From Umezawaea endophytica (GTDB taxonomy: Bacteria > Actinomycetota > Actinomycetes > Mycobacteriales > Pseudonocardiaceae): DNA of 64,000 bases. The position numbers and the translations under genes were made by a program. Shown here in pieces: positions 3,768-52,404 of this stretch; position 1 is the first letter of the stretch; each line of letters begins with the position of its first letter. The DNA lies in assembly GCF_025061645.1 (NCBI RefSeq), contig NZ_JANYMP010000011.1, positions 1 to 64,000 of the forward strand, read 5' to 3'. Below the pieces are notes generated by a model, which worked only from the letters and a program-made list of their open reading frames with translations, ran no database searches and was not told the DNA's origin.

Positions 3768-5053
3768 TCGGTACCTCCGGCGGTGGCGGGGTTGACGATC
3801 AGGACGGCGCGCGAGTCGGGACGCAGGGCCTTCGCGGCGGCGGAGACCTCGTCCACGGTCACGGCGGCGATGCGGTCCGGCAGCTCGTGGATCAGTTCGG
3901 CCCGGCCGAACAGCAGCTCCGCGGACCCGAAGGCCAGCGTGCGGTTCGTGAGCCGGTCGTGCTCGCGGTGCATGGTGGACGCCCAGCGGGCCGTCACCTT
4001 GGCCAGCTCCTCGACCGTCGGCGGCTCCTCGGCGAGGAGCTGCAACTCCTCGTCCAGCGCGGCGATGACCCGGTCGACGGGCACGTCCGGCGCGTGGATC
4101 GCGGTGATCGTGAAGCTGTCCGGGTCACGGGCCTCGAGCGGTCCGAACAGGCCGCAGCCCGCGTTGATGTCCGTGACGATGGCGTCGCGGTGCACCAGGC
4201 GCTGCTGGAGGCGGGAGCCGTCGCCGTCGGTCAGCACGCCCGCCAGCACCAGGTAGGCGAGGTAGGCGTCCAGTTCGGTCACCGGGTCCGGGACGCGGTA
4301 GCCGATCGCGACGGCCGGGAACGGCGCGTGCGGGTCGGTCTGCTCGGCGCGGATCTCGCCCTTGGGGGCGTCCTCGGCGAACGACGGGCGCTCCGGCACG
4401 GTCCGCGCGGGGACGTCGCCGAAGTGCTTCTCGACCAGTTCGGTCGCGTTCTCGACGGTGAAGTCGCCCGCCACGGTCAGCACGGCGTTGCCCGGCGCGT
4501 AGTAGGTGTCGAAGAAGGCCGCGCAGTCCTCGACGGTCGCGTTCTCCAGGTCGGTGAAGTCGCCGTAGCCGTTGTGGGCGTTCGGGAACGTCTTGAACAG
4601 CACCGGGGGCAGCAGGATCCAGGGGAAGCCGCCGTACGGCCGGTTCAGCACGTTGAGGCGGATCTCCTCCTTCACCACGTCGATCTGGTTGTTGAGGTTC
4701 TCCTGGGTGATCTTCGGGGCGCGCATGCGGTCCGCTTCGAGGAACAGCGCGCGCTCCAGTGCCGCCGACGGCAGCACCTCGTAGTAGTCGGTGTAGTCGG
4801 GGTGCGTCGATCCGTTGAACGTGCCGCCAGAGGACTGCACGTGCCGGAAGTGCGCGAGCTTCTCCAGGCTCTCGCTGCCCTGGAACATCAGGTGTTCGAA
4901 CAGGTGCGCGAAGCCGGTGCGCCCTTCGGGCTCGGACCGGAAGCCGACGTCGTAGTGCACGCTCACGCCGACCACCGGGGCACTCGTATCGGGGGCGAGC
5001 ACCACCCGCAGTCCGTTGGGAAGCGTGAACCTGTGCAGTTCGGGTAGCGCCAT
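3764..5053 (-). CDS. M16-family zinc metallopeptidase, catalytic subunit
   Basis: This 429-residue protein begins MALPELHRFTLPNGLRVVL. It carries the inverted zinc motif H50-LF-E53-H54 and a downstream acidic segment (DVVKEEIRLN, near 130) that should provide the third zinc ligand. M16 enzymes cut peptides up to a few kilodaltons inside a clamshell chamber. There is no signal peptide, so it is probably cytoplasmic. The ATG lies 9 bp after the stop of the DUF2207 gene. The stop overlaps the start of the zinc-less M16 partner, which would complete the chamber. Confidence 0.92.
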   Translation of the reverse strand: MALPELHRFTLPNGLRVVLAPDTSAPVVGVSVHYDVGFRSEPEGRTGFAHLFEHLMFQGSESLEKLAHFRHVQSSGGTFNGSTHPDYTDYYEVLPSAALERALFLEADRMRAPKITQENLNNQIDVVKEEIRLNVLNRPYGGFPWILLPPVLFKTFPNAHNGYGDFTDLENATVEDCAAFFDTYYAPGNAVLTVAGDFTVENATELVEKHFGDVPARTVPERPSFAEDAPKGEIRAEQTDPHAPFPAVAIGYRVPDPVTELDAYLAYLVLAGVLTDGDGSRLQQRLVHRDAIVTDINAGCGLFGPLEARDPDSFTITAIHAPDVPVDRVIAALDEELQLLAEEPPTVEELAKVTARWASTMHREHDRLTNRTLAFGSAELLFGRAELIHELPDRIAAVTVDEVSAAAKALRPDSRAVLIVNPATAGGTE

Positions 5054-5062
5054 ACGAGCAGC

Positions 5063-6742
5063 CTACGGCTTCTGGCCCCTGAGTGATCGGAGGTGCCCCG
5101 CCTGGGCGAGCACACCGTCGAGCGCGCCGAGGAACGCCGGGAAGTGCCGGGCGAACCGGCCGAGATCCGGGCTGCTCTCGGACTCGCCGAACCAGTACAG
5201 GCCCGGCGTGCCGCCCGTGCCGGACGCCAGCGGGGCGAACGCGCCGAGCCAGCGGTCCGTCGCCCCGAGCACCACGGCGTAGGGCAGGGAGCGGGAGAAG
5301 ACCATCTCGCGGTCGGCTTCGGGGATGTCGCCCGGCGAGACCGCGTGGAGGTAGCCGCGCAGGCCGCGGACGTGCTCCAGCAGGGCGCTGCCGCGCTTGG
5401 TGCGGGCGGGCATCGAGCGGGCGCCGACCGTGAGGGCCAGGCCCGCGACCACGACGACCAGCCCGAGCAGGGCCGCGCCGCCGCTGAACGCGAGGCCGAC
5501 GGTGAGCCCGACCCCGGCCACCGCGAGCACCACCCCGTAGAGCGACCACCGGCCGCGGACGGCGTCCGGGCGGCGGGTGAACCAGTTCTTGTCGACGACG
5601 TCGGTGTAGAGGCGGTCGCGCACCTCGCCGAGGTCGATCTTGCGGCTGCGCAGCTCGGAGACCAGCACGGAGTCGGTGCCGTCCGGCAGCAACGCCGCGA
5701 AGACCGCGCGCTCGTAGCCGGACAGCGAGTCGTCGACCGGGTTGCGCCGGACCAGCGTCCAGTCGAGCACCCCGCCCGCCGACCCGACCTCGGAGATCCA
5801 CAGGTAGTTGCGGACGGCGAGGTCGATGATCGTCGCGGTCACGTCCACCACGTCGACGTGCTCGTCGACGACCGTGCCGACCTGGCCGGGGAGCACCCCG
5901 TCCGGCGAGGCGAACGCGACGCCGCCGCCGGGTCCCGCGACCAGCACGTCGACCGGTCCGACGTCGGCGGCCAGCGCGCGGGCGTCGCGGCCGCGCAGGA
6001 ACCAGATCAGGGCGAACCCGCCGACCAGCACGACCACCAGCACCAGCAGCGCGACGGCGCCCGCCGGGGTGAGGGCGAACGCGGCGGCCAGGCCACCGCT
6101 CTCCACGACCCTGGCGTTCGCGGGCGCGGCCCCGTCCTGGAGGCCGACCGCGATGTCGACCCGGTCGCCGGGCGCCAGGCCGACCTCCTTCGCCCGCACG
6201 CCACGGCCGTCACCGAGTTCGGCGGTCGTGCACGGCGACGACGAGCTCGGCGGACCGGCCAGGCACGTCACCGACCTGGGCGCGTCCGGCGCGATGACCG
6301 ACAGCGAGACCGAGTCGAGGGGGGTGTCCCACCCACTGGCGGGCTGCCAGCGCAACTCCAAGGTGTCACCGATTTGAGCGACTGCGCCGATCAGCACGTA
6401 GTGAATAGTGGAGGTGCCGGAGTTCACCGAGACGGTGAACTCCTCGGCGTTCGCGGACGCCGAGCCAGAGCCCTCGACGGAGGCGTCATTGATCTCGAAC
6501 ACCCGGTCGCGGTTCTCGCCGACGGCGATCCGCAGCGGCACCGTGCGCCGCGCGGTCGTGCCCTCGGGCACCGTGACGACCTCGGTGACGGTGACCTTGC
6601 CGTCGCGTTCCAGCTTGAGCCGGACATCGGTCCCGAAGGCTCCGGGGAGCGGCTGGCCGCTGGTGGGTTGGGCGGACGCGGGCCCCGCGAGACCGCACAG
6701 CGCGACCGCGCCGATCAGCGCCACTCCCCAGTTTTTCAACAC
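5063..6742 (-). CDS. DUF2207 domain membrane protein
   Basis: With a GTG start at 6742 the product is 559 residues and opens with a signal peptide (VLKNWGVALIGAVALCGLAG, then ASAQ). An extracytoplasmic DUF2207-type beta-rich region follows, then a membrane segment (GAVALLVLVVVLVGGFALIW), a cytoplasmic region, and two more membrane segments near residues 400-445. A longer reading to 6937 adds a Pro/Ala-rich stretch before the signal peptide and overlaps the divergent gene, so it is rejected. The neighbouring TTG at 6739 is an alternative start. It is the first gene of the operon with M16, M16 and nudC. Function is unknown, although DUF2207 proteins are often linked to surface or stress functions. 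Confidence 0.8.
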   Translation of the reverse strand: MLKNWGVALIGAVALCGLAGPASAQPTSGQPLPGAFGTDVRLKLERDGKVTVTEVVTVPEGTTARRTVPLRIAVGENRDRVFEINDASVEGSGSASANAEEFTVSVNSGTSTIHYVLIGAVAQIGDTLELRWQPASGWDTPLDSVSLSVIAPDAPRSVTCLAGPPSSSSPCTTAELGDGRGVRAKEVGLAPGDRVDIAVGLQDGAAPANARVVESGGLAAAFALTPAGAVALLVLVVVLVGGFALIWFLRGRDARALAADVGPVDVLVAGPGGGVAFASPDGVLPGQVGTVVDEHVDVVDVTATIIDLAVRNYLWISEVGSAGGVLDWTLVRRNPVDDSLSGYERAVFAALLPDGTDSVLVSELRSRKIDLGEVRDRLYTDVVDKNWFTRRPDAVRGRWSLYGVVLAVAGVGLTVGLAFSGGAALLGLVVVVAGLALTVGARSMPARTKRGSALLEHVRGLRGYLHAVSPGDIPEADREMVFSRSLPYAVVLGATDRWLGAFAPLASGTGGTPGLYWFGESESSPDLGRFARHFPAFLGALDGVLAQAGHLRSLRGQKP

Positions 6743-6819: not shown

Positions 6820-8121
6820 ATGACGCAACCACCGCCGCCGGGAGGCTGGCCGCCGCCCCGACCGGTAGGGCCGCCTCCGCTGCCCGCGCCATTGCACCCC
6901 CAGCAGCAGCCGGGTCAGGGGCCCCCGCAGCAGTCACAGTGGCCCGGCCTGCGCCCCCAGCCGCAGCAGGCCCTCCCGCCGCTGCCGCCGCCGCGCCCGG
7001 TCATGCCGCCACCGATGGCCGCGCCGCCGCCCGGCGCGTGGGGCCCGCCGCCGCCCCACCAGACCCAGTTCCAGCAGCGCCCGGTCCCGCCGGGTCCGCC
7101 AGGCCCGCCCGGCTGGGGTCCGCCGCCGCAGTACCCGCCCTACCAGCCTAAGAAGAGCAACGGCCCGGTCCTCGCGGGTGTGCTGTTCGCCGTCGCGATC
7201 CTCGGCATCGCGGTCATCGGCGTGGTCGCCGCCACCGGCACGGCCAGCCGCGCCAGCGACGCCGGGTACGCCGGGTACTCGACGTACAGCTACACGCCCC
7301 CGACGACGACCACGACCACCGCGGCGACGACGAGCGGCGGCCGCGCCAGCACCAGCCGCTCCGCGACCGCGTCGGCCACCTCGTCGAAGCCCGCGGGCCC
7401 GAAGGCGGTGATCAAGCTCGGCGACAACCCGATCCACAAGGCCGGGCTCGGCGCGTTCGACATCGACGGCTGCCCGCTGCCCGGCATGGACTACTCCCCC
7501 GCCGGTCAGGACAGCTTCCTGCGGGCCGCGCTGCCGTGCATCGAGAACATGTGGAAGCCGTCGTTCACCAAGGCCAACCTGCCGTACCAGCCCGTCGAGC
7601 TGGTCATCGTCACGTCCGCCATCACCAACCCGTGCGGCCAGATGGGTCCGGACCGGACCGCGATGTACTGCGACGGGACGATCTACTGGACGGCGAACTA
7701 CTACGCGAGCGAGCAGGGCTCGAACAACCCGAACCACCCCGGCAAGTACCTGGGGCAGCTCGCGCACGAGTACGGTCACCACATCCAGTGGCTGTCCGGG
7801 ATCCTGCGGGCCTCGGGCGAGGCGCAGTACGACAAGGGCGGCTGGGACACCCCGGCAGGCCTGGACCTGAACCGCCGCAAGGAGTTGCAGGCGACCTGCT
7901 TCGGCGGGATGACCCTCGCACCTCTCTCGCACGGTGCCATCCCGAGGGACGTGATCGACGTGGCGCTGCGCGACGCGAGCACCAGGGGCGACTACCCCGT
8001 GTACCCCACCCGCGACCACGGCGCGCCCGAGCGCAACGCCCAGTGGGTCATGGACGGGTTCACCAACAACGAGACGAGCGCCTGCAACACGTGGGTGTCG
8101 GACCCGCAGAGCGTTAGCTGA
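6820..8121 (+). CDS. Neutral zinc metallopeptidase, membrane-anchored, proline-rich N-terminus
   Basis: This 433-residue protein begins at an ATG with GGGGGA about 10 nt upstream (MTQPPPPGGWPPP). Residues 1-113 are extremely Pro/Gln-rich. One membrane helix follows (about 115-140, VLAGVLFAVAILGIAVIGVV), then a Thr/Ser-rich linker and an extracellular catalytic domain. The domain holds the zinc motif HEYGHHIQ near 316-323 and the family segments LNRRKELQATCFGG and NETSACNTW, as in the YpfJ-like neutral zinc metallopeptidases (Zn_peptidase family). The proline-rich cytoplasmic tail resembles actinobacterial tails that bind signalling or septal proteins. It is followed 3 bp later by a paralogue. 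The substrate is unknown. Confidence 0.88.
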   Translation: MTQPPPPGGWPPPRPVGPPPLPAPLHPQQQPGQGPPQQSQWPGLRPQPQQALPPLPPPRPVMPPPMAAPPPGAWGPPPPHQTQFQQRPVPPGPPGPPGWGPPPQYPPYQPKKSNGPVLAGVLFAVAILGIAVIGVVAATGTASRASDAGYAGYSTYSYTPPTTTTTTAATTSGGRASTSRSATASATSSKPAGPKAVIKLGDNPIHKAGLGAFDIDGCPLPGMDYSPAGQDSFLRAALPCIENMWKPSFTKANLPYQPVELVIVTSAITNPCGQMGPDRTAMYCDGTIYWTANYYASEQGSNNPNHPGKYLGQLAHEYGHHIQWLSGILRASGEAQYDKGGWDTPAGLDLNRRKELQATCFGGMTLAPLSHGAIPRDVIDVALRDASTRGDYPVYPTRDHGAPERNAQWVMDGFTNNETSACNTWVSDPQSVS

Positions 8122-8124
8122 CGG

Positions 8125-9819
8125 GTGGGCTACGGGGGCGTGACACCGCCGCGCGAGTCGGCCGGTGCGCGCGTCGTGGATGATGGTGGCCAGGTCAGCA
8201 GCGGTGGCGGGAGCTCATCGACTGGTGGCGCGGGTGGCGGTGGCGTGGTCGAGGGCTTGGTCGAGGGCGACGACGGGGTGGCTGTGCGGTCTGGTTCGGG
8301 AGCGGTCGGGGTGCCGGATGACTCGGCGGCGGTTTCGGCCGTCGAGGAGCAGGAGGCCGGGCGCACGCCGGTGGACGCGACCGCCGCGGTCGAGGAGCCC
8401 GCACCTGCGGAAGCCGTGACTCCGGTGGCTGTGACCCCGGTGGCCGTGACGCCGGCGGCGGCCGAGGACGATCTGCCCGCGAACGACGAGGCCGTCCCAC
8501 CTGCGGCGGCCGATGAGCCCGCCGACGGGCTGGCCACGGTCCCGGCCGCAGAGGAGCCGACGCAGGCCCCCGGCGAGCCGGACACCTTCCTGACCGCCGA
8601 GGCGATGGAGTTCTTCGCGGTCGCGGGCGCCGGGCCCGATCCCACCGCCGCGTCCGCCCCGGCCGCCGAGACCCCGGTCGCCAAGACGTTCGGCGTGCCG
8701 GAGATCTTCCGCGCCTCCGAGCCCACCCAGTTCCTCATGCCCGTCCAGGTCGAGCCCGTCGAGCAGGGCGAGCTGTTCGAACTCCCCAAGGTCGTCCGCG
8801 ACCCCGACGACGTCGACACCGTGGTGTTCACCGGCGTGCTCGACACCGACGACCTGGACGAACCGCGGCCCACCCCGGCCGAACCCCTGGCAGCCGAACC
8901 ACTCGCGGCCGAGCCCCTGGCGGCCGAACGCCCGAAGAACAGCCCGGCCGTGCTGGTCAGCGTCTTCACCATGATCATCTGCTCCGTGCTCGGCCTGGGC
9001 CTGCTCAGCCGCCTCGACGCCCGCGAACCCGTCGCGGGCCGCCCCGTCGCGGCCCCGTACACGGCGGCCATGGCCCCGACCAGCACCGAGCCCGCACGCC
9101 CTCGCGCCGTGCAACGCCTGGAGGACCACCCGCTCCTGGTCAACCCGAAGTCGCTGCCGCAGATCACCTGCGACCTCCCGGTGTTCGGCACCTCGGACCA
9201 GCAGTTGGCCGCCTACTACAAGGCGGGCGTGACCTGCCTGGACAACGCGTGGGGCCCGGTGCTGAAGGAGGCGAACCTGCCCTTCGAACCGCCGTCGCTG
9301 GACGCCGCCCCGGAGCTGTCCAACGGCCCGTGCGGCGCCGCCCCCGCGTCGGAGGACGCCGTCGCCTACTACTGCGGCCGCAACCGGATGATCTACATGC
9401 CCACCGGCAGGCTGCGCGAGAACGGCGGCGGCGACCGCCCGGCGACCCACCTCGCGACGCTGGCGCACGAGTACGGCCACCACGTCCAGGCCATGACCGG
9501 CATGCTCCGCGCGGCGGACCTGAAGATCGTCGGCGCGGGCGAGAAGACCCCGGCGGGCCTGGAGATGTCCCGCCGCATCGAGCTACAGGCGAACTGCTTC
9601 GCGGGCATGTTCCTCGGCGCCGCGGCGGGCCGGGGCTCCATCAGCGCGGAACTGGCCAACCGCGCCGAGGAGGACTTCCAGTACGCGATGGAGGAAGCCC
9701 CCGACAAGAACGCCCACGGCAGCCCGGCCAACCAGGGCGACTGGGCGCTCAGCGGTTTCGAGGCCAACACCACGAACGCCTGCAACACCTACGCGGCTCC
9801 GGCGGCCGAGGTCGGCTGA
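8125..9819 (+). CDS. Neutral zinc metallopeptidase, membrane-anchored, acidic repeat-rich N-terminus
   Basis: As read from GTG 8125 the product is 564 residues. About 270 N-terminal residues are disordered and Ala/Pro/Glu-rich with short repeats (VAVTP three times near 90, AAEPL three times near 253). One membrane helix lies at about 273-297. The extracellular domain matches the preceding gene, with HEYGHHVQ near 447-454, RRIELQANCFAGM and TNACNTY. The gene lies 3 bp after its paralogue, so the pair is an operon and a tandem duplication with diverged N-termini. The start is uncertain: no clear ribosome binding site precedes 8125, and GTGs downstream are possible. The C-terminal domain is certain. 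Confidence 0.85.
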   Translation: MGYGGVTPPRESAGARVVDDGGQVSSGGGSSSTGGAGGGGVVEGLVEGDDGVAVRSGSGAVGVPDDSAAVSAVEEQEAGRTPVDATAAVEEPAPAEAVTPVAVTPVAVTPAAAEDDLPANDEAVPPAAADEPADGLATVPAAEEPTQAPGEPDTFLTAEAMEFFAVAGAGPDPTAASAPAAETPVAKTFGVPEIFRASEPTQFLMPVQVEPVEQGELFELPKVVRDPDDVDTVVFTGVLDTDDLDEPRPTPAEPLAAEPLAAEPLAAERPKNSPAVLVSVFTMIICSVLGLGLLSRLDAREPVAGRPVAAPYTAAMAPTSTEPARPRAVQRLEDHPLLVNPKSLPQITCDLPVFGTSDQQLAAYYKAGVTCLDNAWGPVLKEANLPFEPPSLDAAPELSNGPCGAAPASEDAVAYYCGRNRMIYMPTGRLRENGGGDRPATHLATLAHEYGHHVQAMTGMLRAADLKIVGAGEKTPAGLEMSRRIELQANCFAGMFLGAAAGRGSISAELANRAEEDFQYAMEEAPDKNAHGSPANQGDWALSGFEANTTNACNTYAAPAAEVG

Positions 9820-23021: not shown

Positions 23022-23466
23022 CCGCCGAGTGGCCCAGCGTGGCAACAAAATCACACCCAGTAGGAACCAGAACACAAACCCCAAAACACCACTTGACCTG
23101 CAATTTCACCCACAGCCACCACCACGCGGCCAACTTCCCCCACAGCCACCACCACCCACCCCCGACCACCACCCGGCCTGCGCTCACCCACAAACCGCGC
23201 CACAGCCACGGCCCCACCCACCCACCCACCCACCCACCACCCACAAGCTTCCGCCAGAGAACCCCACCACCCGCTCCCCGCACGCCCCCACCCAACCGTG
23301 GCCGATTTTACTTGGGGTTTTTGGCGCTAAACTCAGTCGGGCGGCAAGCTCTCCACCTGCCGTTTTGGCCCGACCAGCGCCAAAAAGAGGGGCCCCAAGT
23401 CAAATCGGCCACCCCCCGCTGGAACCCGGCCACCCCACCACCTACCCAACTGCCAGAATCACCCCC
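23022..23466. other. Intergenic region with low-complexity direct repeats
   Basis: This 445-bp gap between adnA and the alkyltransferase-like gene contains C/A-rich low complexity. CCCACAGCCACCACCAC occurs at 23109 and again at 23139 (30-bp pitch), a run of ACCC units spans about 23211-23241, and palindromic element copy A lies at 23298-23412. No coding signal is seen. Promoters for both divergent genes should lie here but none is clear. Confidence 0.7.
23298..23412 (+). repeat. Dispersed palindromic element, copy A
   Basis: This 115-bp imperfect palindrome opens GTGGCCGATTTTACTTGGGG and closes CCCCAAGTCAAATCGGCCAC. The inner stem is TTTTTGGCGCT with AGCGCCAAAAA, and GTCGGGC with GCCCGAC. 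The sequence after it (CGCTGGAACCC) is also shared with other copies. This is the most diverged copy and the only one next to a gene start, 55 bp upstream of the alkyltransferase-like gene. The other copies start at 42872, 46140 and 51875. Confidence 0.93.
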
Positions 23467-42871: not shown

Positions 42872-42989
42872 GTGGCCGATTTGACTTGGGGCCCCTAGAT
42901 TCGACCCTTCGCCGGGCACTAAGGGCGGAGGGTGAAGCTGCCGCCCGGCGAAAGTTTAAGGGTCGAATCCCCCAAGTAAAATCGGCCAC
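42872..42989 (-). repeat. Dispersed palindromic element, copy B (inverted orientation)
   Basis: This 118-bp copy lies between the convergent TetR and hydrolase genes, opposite in orientation to the other three. Read on the minus strand the inner stems are GATTCGACCC with GGGTCGAATC, and CGCCGGGC with GCCCGGCG. Both differ from copies C and D yet pair fully, so changes are compensated. The GCTGGAACC extension is present on its right side. The flank at 42743-42871 is repetitive (GGCTGCGGGT-type units) with no gene. Confidence 0.95.
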
Positions 42990-45802: not shown

Positions 45803-45945
45803 ACACACACCATCAGCAAGTCCGAAATGGACCAGAGGTCACGGGGACGGCCAAACAGCACAGGTGGGCGAATGGGTACGGCGCGAGCGGCTAGGACAGG
45901 TAGAGCGGGTGAGGGCAGGCGGGGCGCGAACGGCGACGTACGCCG

Positions 45946-46029
45946 GGGCTCAGGGCTCAGGGCTCAGGGCTCAGGGCTCAGGGCTCAGGGCTCAGGGCTC
46001 AGGGCTCAGGGCTCAGGGCTCAGGGCTCA
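45946..46029 (+). repeat. Heptanucleotide tandem repeat, 12 copies of GGGCTCA
   Basis: Twelve perfect GGGCTCA units run without interruption in the intergenic region after the DUF4873 gene. Seven-base units shift frame each copy; three units encode GSGLRAQ in one frame. No convincing gene uses it. Perfect copies suggest recent expansion or active slippage. Confidence 0.97.
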
Positions 46030-46139
46030 GGAAATGACAGCCGCCGCATGGCCCCACGGCAAGTCACTCACGCCAACGACCAACCCGCTCTTGCCCTAAA
46101 TCCCCACCAGCACCCCACCTGACCTGGCCCTACGCAACC

Positions 46140-46257
46140 GTGGCCGGTTTTACTTGGGGGATTTGCCCCTTAAACTTGCGTCGGACGGCAGCTTCACCTC
46201 TGCCCTTTATTGTCCGACGAAGGGGCAAATCTAGGGGCCCCAAGTCAAACCGGCCAC
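46140..46257 (+). repeat. Dispersed palindromic element, copy C
   Basis: This 118-bp copy has outer arms GTGGCCGGTTTTACTTGGGG and CCCCAAGTCAAACCGGCCAC. The A-to-G change in the left arm is matched by T-to-C in the right arm compared with copies A, B and D, a compensated pair. Inner stems GATTTGCCCC/GGGGCAAATC and GTCGGAC/GTCCGAC equal copy D. It lies between convergent genes (stops 45802 and 46474). The remainder of 46258-46427 is C/A-rich with no gene. Confidence 0.95.
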
Positions 46258-51828: not shown

Positions 51829-51874
51829 ATCTTGTTTGATTACCCACTACGAGGCCGGACGCCGTCTACGCAGC

Positions 51875-51993
51875 GTGGCCGATTTTACTTGGGGGATTTG
51901 CCCCTTAAACTTGCGTCGGACGGCGGCTTCACCTTCCCGCCGTTTTGGTCCGACGAAGGGGCAAATCTAGGGGACCCAAGTCAAATCGGCCAC
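51875..51993 (+). repeat. Dispersed palindromic element, copy D
   Basis: This 119-bp copy lies 47 bp after the hydrolase stop. The outer arms are GTGGCCGATTTTACTTGGGG and its near-complement. The inner stems are GATTTGCCCC/GGGGCAAATC, GTCGGAC/GTCCGAC and an apical CGGCGG/CCGCCG. The left arm carries a TTAAACTT bulge against GAA on the right in copies B, C and D. It lies between convergent genes. The next 120 bp to the hairpin at 52118 contain no gene. Confidence 0.95.
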
Positions 51994-52117
51994 ATCCCCG
52001 CTGGGAGTTCGGTACGGGGGTCCAGCGGGGGGGAAACCCAGCTTAAAGCCGCATGAGCACACGGGTACGCCTGAGGTGGTCCTCCCCCAGCCACCCCGCT
52101 TGCGCAATTATCTCGAT

Positions 52118-52171
52118 GTCGCGTTTTCTTTGTCAAGGCGGGAAAGATGCCTTGACAAAGAAAACGCGACA
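52118..52171. repeat. Perfect 23-bp inverted repeat (hairpin)
   Basis: Positions 52118-52140 (TGTCGCGTTTTCTTTGTCAA...) are exactly complementary to 52149-52171 around an 8-nt loop (GGAAAGAT). The stem is AT-richer than its surroundings. It lies in the 576-bp gap between the hydrolase (stop 51828) and a minus-strand membrane-protein gene (stop 52405). It could be a terminator or a mobile hairpin unit. No T-run follows. Confidence 0.95.
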
Positions 52172-52224: not shown

Positions 52225-52400
52225 AGGCGTCGGCTCTCGGGGCGATGGGTGCGGGTCGCATTGCCGCGTCTGCCGTGCGGAGGGATGCTGTGGGGCGTGG
52301 CTCGTTGGTGAGGGGGCCGGGTCGCATTGCCGCGTTTGCGTACGGAGAGATGCTGCGAGGGCGTGGCTTGTTCGCAGGGGGGGTGGGTCGCATTGCTTTG
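52225..52400. repeat. 66-bp tandem repeat, about 2.5 copies
   Basis: GGGTCGCATTGC starts at 52253, 52319 and 52385, exactly 66 bp apart. The units share GCGTNTGCNNNCGGAGNGATGCTG and GGCGTGGCT(C/T)GTT. Unit length is divisible by three and an open frame crosses on the minus strand, but it shows no sign of being a gene. It abuts the 3' end of the small membrane-protein gene. Confidence 0.85.
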
Positions 52401-52404
52401 TTTC

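Follow-up and report, generated by a model that had tools for sequence, protein, structure and literature searches.

The window, a 64,000-nucleotide stretch of DNA from the soil bacterium Umezawaea endophytica, contains four copies of a long imperfect palindrome (115–119 bp), referred to here as copies A to D; all four were found at the places and on the strands that an earlier note on this DNA had given. Copy D, the element under study (51875–51993, + strand, 119 bp), begins 46 bp after the end of a + strand gene, and its neighbor on the other side is a − strand gene that faces it. Copy A (23298–23412, + strand, 115 bp) belongs to a TTTTTGGCGCT subfamily; from a reading of the sequence, a + strand frame near 23466 that the gene caller did not report possibly begins downstream of it. 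Copy B (42872–42989, − strand, 118 bp) belongs to a GATTCGACCC subfamily. Copy C (46140–46257, + strand, 118 bp) has exchanged A-T for G-C in both outer arms, a swap that the earlier note had singled out and that is real.

The outer arms consist of 19 paired positions and a constant T.C mismatch of position 12 with position 108, both of which are present in the window copies as had been described. Further inward, a 7-nt bulge separates the 12 pairs of the inner stem from the 8 pairs of the middle stem, beyond which the apex varies. The inner stems of the four copies differ in sequence and keep their pairing, again in agreement with the first description, while the apical stem fails, with 67% of cells paired among 13 distinct copies. 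In copy D, the left outer arm (51875–51894, + strand) is GTGGCCGATTTTACTTGGGG, the left strand of the inner stem (51895–51906) has its partner in the right strand (51956–51967), and the right outer arm (51974–51993) has one mismatch of its own, an A in place of C at 51974. The sequences on either side of copy D (51840–51874 and 51994–52018) are weakly conserved among copies. Folding compared with shuffles gave z values from −6.95 to −9.68 in six folds, which covered the four copies and, for two of these, both strands, and in each of the six none of 200 shuffles folded as well as the real copy.

The earlier count of four copies was far too low, as the host genome (G000, 11.0 Mb) holds 83 complete copies of 114–119 bp (plus two partial model matches and one arm at a contig end), of which 13 are letter-identical and dispersed. 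An exact two-arm pattern found 82 copies in the host, 113 in U. tangerina DSM 44720 (G001), and 61 in a third Umezawaea genome (G002); it found none in seven other genomes searched, and the reversed control also gave none. The copies examined below, after removal of repeat entries for one and the same site, are the 83 of the host, 90 from U. tangerina and 15 from the third genome (in both cases a subset of that genome's copies), and 17 from Lentzea. The covariance-model search that the earlier note had proposed, using a model built on 13 host sequences, recovered many copies in the host and in related genomes: with at most 14 candidates scored per genome, matches at E ≤ 1e-4 came from at least 28 of the family's 249 searched genomes, representing at least 9 of 46 genera. 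Solo copies of Lentzea sp. NBRC 105346 differ from the outer arm of the relative G009 at 1 of 20 positions. A BLAST search of the palindrome against phages and plasmids gave no match at E 1e-5.

Other repeats are found close to the window copies. A second hairpin (TGTCGCGTTTTCTTTGTCAAGGC...GCCTTGACAAAGAAAACGCGACA, 52117–52171) lies in the gap of copy D; its core, TTGTCAAG[AG]C..G[CT]CTTGACAA, occurs 15 times in the fetched host loci, once in 30 loci of U. tangerina, and five times in a further set of 8-kb loci. The gap after copy D also has three imperfect repeats at a spacing of 66 bp (52227–52403), each containing GGGTCGCATTGC. About 100 bp ahead of copy C, the 7-nt unit GGGCTCA is repeated in tandem in many copies (45932–46043), and neither congener showed this tandem repeat in its syntenic gap.

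DUF222-HNH genes beside the palindrome

In three relatives (G162, G009, and G253) the model matches occur as inverted pairs 1.2–2.3 kb apart, and the gene between them is a DUF222-HNH gene, broken in some of the G162 units. Three bracketed proteins match the Pfam DUF222 model at E 2e-20 to 2.5e-38, and the HNH domain exceeds the Pfam cut-off in two of them but falls short of it in the third, from G162. When 150 candidates were scored in each genome, all 17 listed matches in G009 and 10 of 12 in G162 (27 of 29 together, in two genera other than Umezawaea) lay no more than 1.5 kb from a DUF222 hit, compared with chance expectations of 0.14 and 0.04, respectively. All 27 follow one rule of orientation, with the gene to the left of '+' copies and to the right of '−' copies. 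Among the matches listed, 14 of 23 DUF222 hits were touched in G009 and 7 of 11 in G162, some hits being pieces of one gene. G162 has five complete palindrome pairs, and in those of its palindromes that were printed, CGATTTTACTTGGGG/CCCCAAGTCAAATCG occurs together with the T.C mismatch known from the window copies. In G009, the matches listed put palindromes on both sides of 3 DUF222 genes and on one side of the others that were touched; a closer search of seven G009 DUF222 loci placed them on both sides in 5 (two of these weak) and on one side in 2 near contig starts.

In most units the inverted repetition is longer than the palindrome. Self-comparison of nine units gave terminal inverted repeats of 213–364 bp at 81–94% identity, and further units had repeats of 200 bp, 207 bp, 113 bp (L296), and 130 bp (L295, a unit of G047). 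A DUF222-HNH gene between inverted palindromes was found in G162, G009, G253, and G047 (L295), and not at the window copies. In G047, none of the 10 listed model matches was near a DUF222 hit, while a closer search found the palindrome beside 3 of 7 DUF222 loci; the solo copy L180 and the DUF222-adjacent copy L295 of this genome have a 24-nt outer arm in common. A different palindrome of about 131 nt (CTCAACCTCG...CGAGGTTGAG) occupies a fixed spot downstream of the DUF222 match at 5 of the 7 G047 loci (L274, 2528–2659; L279, 2528–2659; L283, 2541–2672; L287, 2519–2650; L291, 2526–2657) and, by eye, also shows paired changes between copies. Five inverted pairs of the palindrome studied here, 70–141 bp apart, were seen in the host (L066, L067, L068, L069, and L011); these run '−' then '+', as in the DUF222 units, and are possibly units with an internal deletion.

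DUF222 itself had no match in the host at E ≤ 0.001 (43 candidates scored) and none in U. tangerina. The third Umezawaea genome has seven DUF222 loci and G205 has two, none of the nine with a match to the palindrome model. Genes of the DUF222-HNH type are widespread among actinobacteria, occurring in 45 of the 61 genomes searched within the order. A sample of 27 loci from the order was taken (best matches, one per genome), 24 of them judgeable and 3 not. By a loose, uncontrolled criterion, a long hairpin was present within 400 bp of the gene at 7 of the 24, which does not imply a relation to this palindrome, and absent at 17; a general pairing of palindrome and DUF222 across the order is therefore unsupported. 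No relatives of DUF222 were confirmed in viral contigs, and PADLOC returned no match for three DUF222 proteins.

It is about an even call, in our judgment, that the copies in the window represent MITE-like solo termini, lacking the gene, of a DUF222-HNH element, with arms kept complementary at the DNA level. The full form of such an element would be a DUF222-HNH gene flanked by two inverted palindromes within terminal inverted repeats, mostly of 200–360 bp, and the solo termini would have multiplied in Umezawaea either after the gene or without it. The strongest alternative, which we consider rather unlikely, is that the palindrome is itself mobile through some host or mobile-element enzyme, and that the DUF222-HNH gene is a passenger or homing gene caught between two palindromes, much as cargo lies between two insertion sequences. 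Palindromes are abundant, and include identical copies, in the host and U. tangerina despite the lack of a DUF222 match in either; moreover, two DUF222 lineages that are only 23% identical adjoin this one palindrome family, and at most of the loci sampled across the order (17 of 24) the gene has no hairpin nearby. All three observations would fit a passenger gene; the single orientation rule, kept by all 27 gene-adjacent matches in two genomes, and inverted repeats that in most units reach past the palindrome argue against it.

Insertion sites and gene context

Comparison of the Umezawaea genomes shows that congeners differ in which sites have a copy. The palindrome was not found at the syntenic places of copies B and C in U. 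tangerina or the third genome; in U. tangerina the gap of copy D is occupied by a copy that is inverted and whose core differs, and in the third genome no palindrome was found there. A further host copy, L032, has the same core as L002 and L003 and sits between convergent genes, and at this site the congeners have no palindrome, the aligned parts of the genes being 17 nt apart in U. tangerina and 89 nt apart in the third genome. With these differences in presence and its identical dispersed copies, this is a mobile-looking family. Sites with the same genes on both sides in two species numbered 13 pairs, 8 in the same orientation and 5 inverted (two-element loci were counted in both orientation lists); since 5 of the 13 are inverted, shared sites are possibly independent insertions, and they were given no weight as evidence of concerted evolution.

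The junctions of 188 copies gave no target-site duplication above that of shuffled partners: direct repeats had length 0 in 131 copies, 2 in 25, and 3 in 32, compared with 128.4, 19.7, and 39.7 for the shuffled partners. Alignment of the congener loci compared also yielded no exact empty site. The flanks within approximately 35–60 bp are C-rich and weakly conserved between copies, which would fit either a carried-along piece of a larger unit or a target preference.

These results bear on whether the family is a classical MITE derived from a DDE insertion sequence, the autonomous partner having disappeared or been overlooked, a possibility that we regard as improbable. Such a MITE would have terminal inverted arms (2235 of 2260 ungapped cells of the outer 19 pairs are Watson-Crick among 119 distinct sequences), high copy number, and identical dispersed copies, and the closely spaced inverted pairs of the host would also suit it. 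It would be expected to leave target-site duplications, however, and these did not exceed the shuffled level; in addition, the inner stems covary as the ends do, and the bracketed genes examined were DUF222-HNH genes. The earlier suggestion of a REP/MITE-like element was broadly right, given the dispersal, identical copies, and presence/absence differences; the structured RNA that the note named as another candidate is not favored.

Gene context was taken from a simple codon-usage gene caller that missed some genes. None of the 83 host copies is inside a called gene. For the 67 host copies with both neighbors called, the gaps are convergent in 19 cases, tandem in 44, and divergent in 4; the corresponding figures for 54 copies of U. 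tangerina and the third genome are 28, 25, and 1. By comparison, window gaps of at least 100 bp comprise 5 convergent, 10 tandem, and 9 divergent gaps, the divergent ones making up 22% of gap bases, and the element-free gaps in the host loci comprise 1, 8, and 7. Because divergent gaps are rarer among the copies than among these comparison gaps, the palindromes appear to avoid promoter-only gaps. They are found in both orientations relative to genes. In U. tangerina and the third genome, some gaps also contain short units that resemble hairpins and are arranged in arrays, GCATCCGGCGCGAAGCGCC being an example (reverse complement of L299, about 4825–5090 and 8050–8310; reverse complement of L300, about 7660–8200), and these units occupy the same kind of gap as the palindromes and are apparently a separate repeat family.

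Covariation of the paired arms

The excess of paired changes that the earlier note had noticed is real. When 13 distinct copies were compared, two-sided changes affected 10 of the 43 pairs, against a mean of 1.8 in shuffles, and 0 of 500 shuffles reached 10; sliding the partner by 1–3 columns left 0–2 two-sided pairs, and there were no one-sided changes giving a standard pair. Of five covariation measures, four exceeded all 500 shuffles and one shuffle reached the fifth, and all five were above the values for slid partners.

The earlier note took such double changes as a sign of selection on a folded RNA or DNA hairpin; selection on a folded RNA does not follow from them. An RNA read from one strand is expected to accept G-U more readily than A-C. 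In the outer arms of the 119 distinct sequences (12 of them from Lentzea), the cells that are not Watson-Crick comprise 5 G-U, 6 A-C, and 14 others, with one gap. As G-U and A-C are equally rare here, the covariation does not favor a structured RNA. All of these counts come from one automatic alignment in which the inner columns of some rows are misaligned, so the argument drawn from them is confined to the outer arms; with that misalignment, G-U and A-C numbered 17 and 6 in the inner helix, 3 and 22 in the middle helix, and 17 and 56 in the apical helix.

A stronger argument for the DNA level than these counts is the decoupling of ends and cores. Nine cores in the host and eight in U. tangerina occur with more than one type of 9-nt end, and six and seven of them, respectively, with at least two end types that are each self-complementary, on cores that are letter-identical over 97–101 nt. 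Complementarity between the two ends of one copy is seen in 75 of 83 cases in the host, 86 of 90 in U. tangerina, 13 of 15 in the third genome, and 17 of 17 in Lentzea. The mismatched position itself differs between species, 12/108 being T.C in 82 of 83 host copies and G-C in 74 of 90 U. tangerina copies. Template switching or conversion accounts for such concerted ends more easily than slow compensation does, and template switching is argued to be a source of compensatory changes in the available text of a published study (PMC8794818).

A structured RNA or 3' UTR element (a terminator, stabilizer, or RNA guide) selected for its fold is therefore a reading to which we assign little probability. 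The strong fold and the covariation would suit it, as would the excess of G-U over A-C in the partly misaligned inner helix, the location of 63 of 67 host copies and 53 of 54 copies of the two congeners (both neighbors called) in convergent or tandem gaps, and an HNH domain that in two of the three bracketed proteins is weakly IscB-like, far below the cut-off of the IscB model. These points are countered by the outer-arm counts, by the deficit of G-U in the middle and apical helices (again with columns partly misaligned), by the presence of the palindromes in either orientation relative to genes, and by the differences between congeners in which copies are present. A scan of the window with Rfam gave no match at gathering score, and the T-rich tract of an intrinsic terminator followed the hairpin in 0 of 188 copies on the + strand and 19 of 188 on the − strand.

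An REP/REPIN-type element of a RAYT (Y1) transposase, which would likewise be palindromic, intergenic, numerous, and at times arranged in inverted pairs, is largely refuted and can be given almost no weight, since the palindromes, at about 119 bp, are far above REP length and the Y1 transposase model PF01797 matches nothing at E ≤ 0.01 in any of the three Umezawaea genomes (G009 has three matches). The transposase sharing the termini that the earlier note had proposed to look for thus did not appear as a RAYT; the partner that did appear, in relatives only, is the DUF222-HNH gene.

Proposed mechanism and comparison with known systems

If the palindromes are indeed the termini of a DUF222-HNH element, the HNH nuclease of a full-length relative may cut palindromic termini or target sites, and repair would then copy the palindrome to new sites without target-site duplication. 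Copies would last mainly in gaps downstream of genes. The complementarity of the arms would be upheld by template switching or hairpin correction, together with conversion among copies, rather than by selection on a transcribed RNA. We infer the role of the nuclease as mover of the palindromes, and it calls for caution because the host and U. tangerina have no DUF222 match and because there are DUF222 genes without palindromes.

A broader and more tentative proposal, which we hold to be possible and on balance unlikely, is that DUF222-HNH genes in some actinobacteria drive a class of mobile DNA not described before, with long-palindrome termini, combining attack on palindromic or cruciform DNA, copying by repair, solo spread, and rewriting of both arms. 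If true, this would explain the concerted changes of the ends and might bear on the gene-conversion hotspots at REP13E12. The oriented pairing in some genera, together with the abundant gene-less palindromes, provides a concrete and assayable mobile-element hypothesis for DUF222-HNH. The family is also a warning case, in that many two-sided compensatory changes can be of DNA-level origin and do not require a structured RNA.

The literature search, as far as the available text of the sources goes, returned no established function for DUF222-HNH. In the literature found, which is mostly outside subscription journals and was available in part, palindromic termini or solo palindromes are undescribed for DUF222, REP13E12, and 13E12. 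One candidate source for DUF222 (PMC10123090) was set aside, its available text being concerned with DUF2220. One of the closest known systems is the REP13E12/13E12 repeat family of actinobacteria (DUF222-HNH genes), to which Pfam assigns the bracketed gene; a plasmid relative carries the annotation '13E12 repeat family protein'. REP13E12 regions are reported, in the available part of a preprint, as frequent sites of gene conversion with no defined function (PMC13061034). The 13E12 family differs from the present one in that, in the text available, palindromic termini and solo palindromes are not described for it; the host of the window has no DUF222 match, and 17 of the 24 judged DUF222 loci of the order are without a long hairpin nearby.

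REP/REPIN elements with RAYT, as presented in the accessible parts of two studies (PMC2817692, PMC3116915), are likewise short intergenic palindromes in many copies that form inverted pairs. The present palindromes are much longer, lack a Y1 match, and have another partner gene; REP palindromes are given as 20–40 bp in the available text of a further study (PMC3733652), a size that the 114–119 bp of the host copies exceed. Bacterial MITEs, as far as the text consulted describes them (PMC10969869), are also non-autonomous and dispersed, with ends common to a gene-bearing element, whereas here there is no target-site duplication, the palindrome takes up most of the length, and the partner is a nuclease.

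There is also a likeness in organization to KolobokP (PMC9587614), which according to the available text has terminal units with inverted repeats of their own, plentiful solo units, and an internal His-Me finger (HNH-type) nuclease; for its composite-like transposons, nuclease-induced recombination has been proposed in the same text. KolobokP differs, so far as described there, in being eukaryotic, in having direct terminal units, and in encoding a DDD/E transposase. The bracketing of a poorly understood nuclease gene by these palindromes in some related genera suggests that the solo copies are termini, lacking the gene, of a mobile element not yet described.
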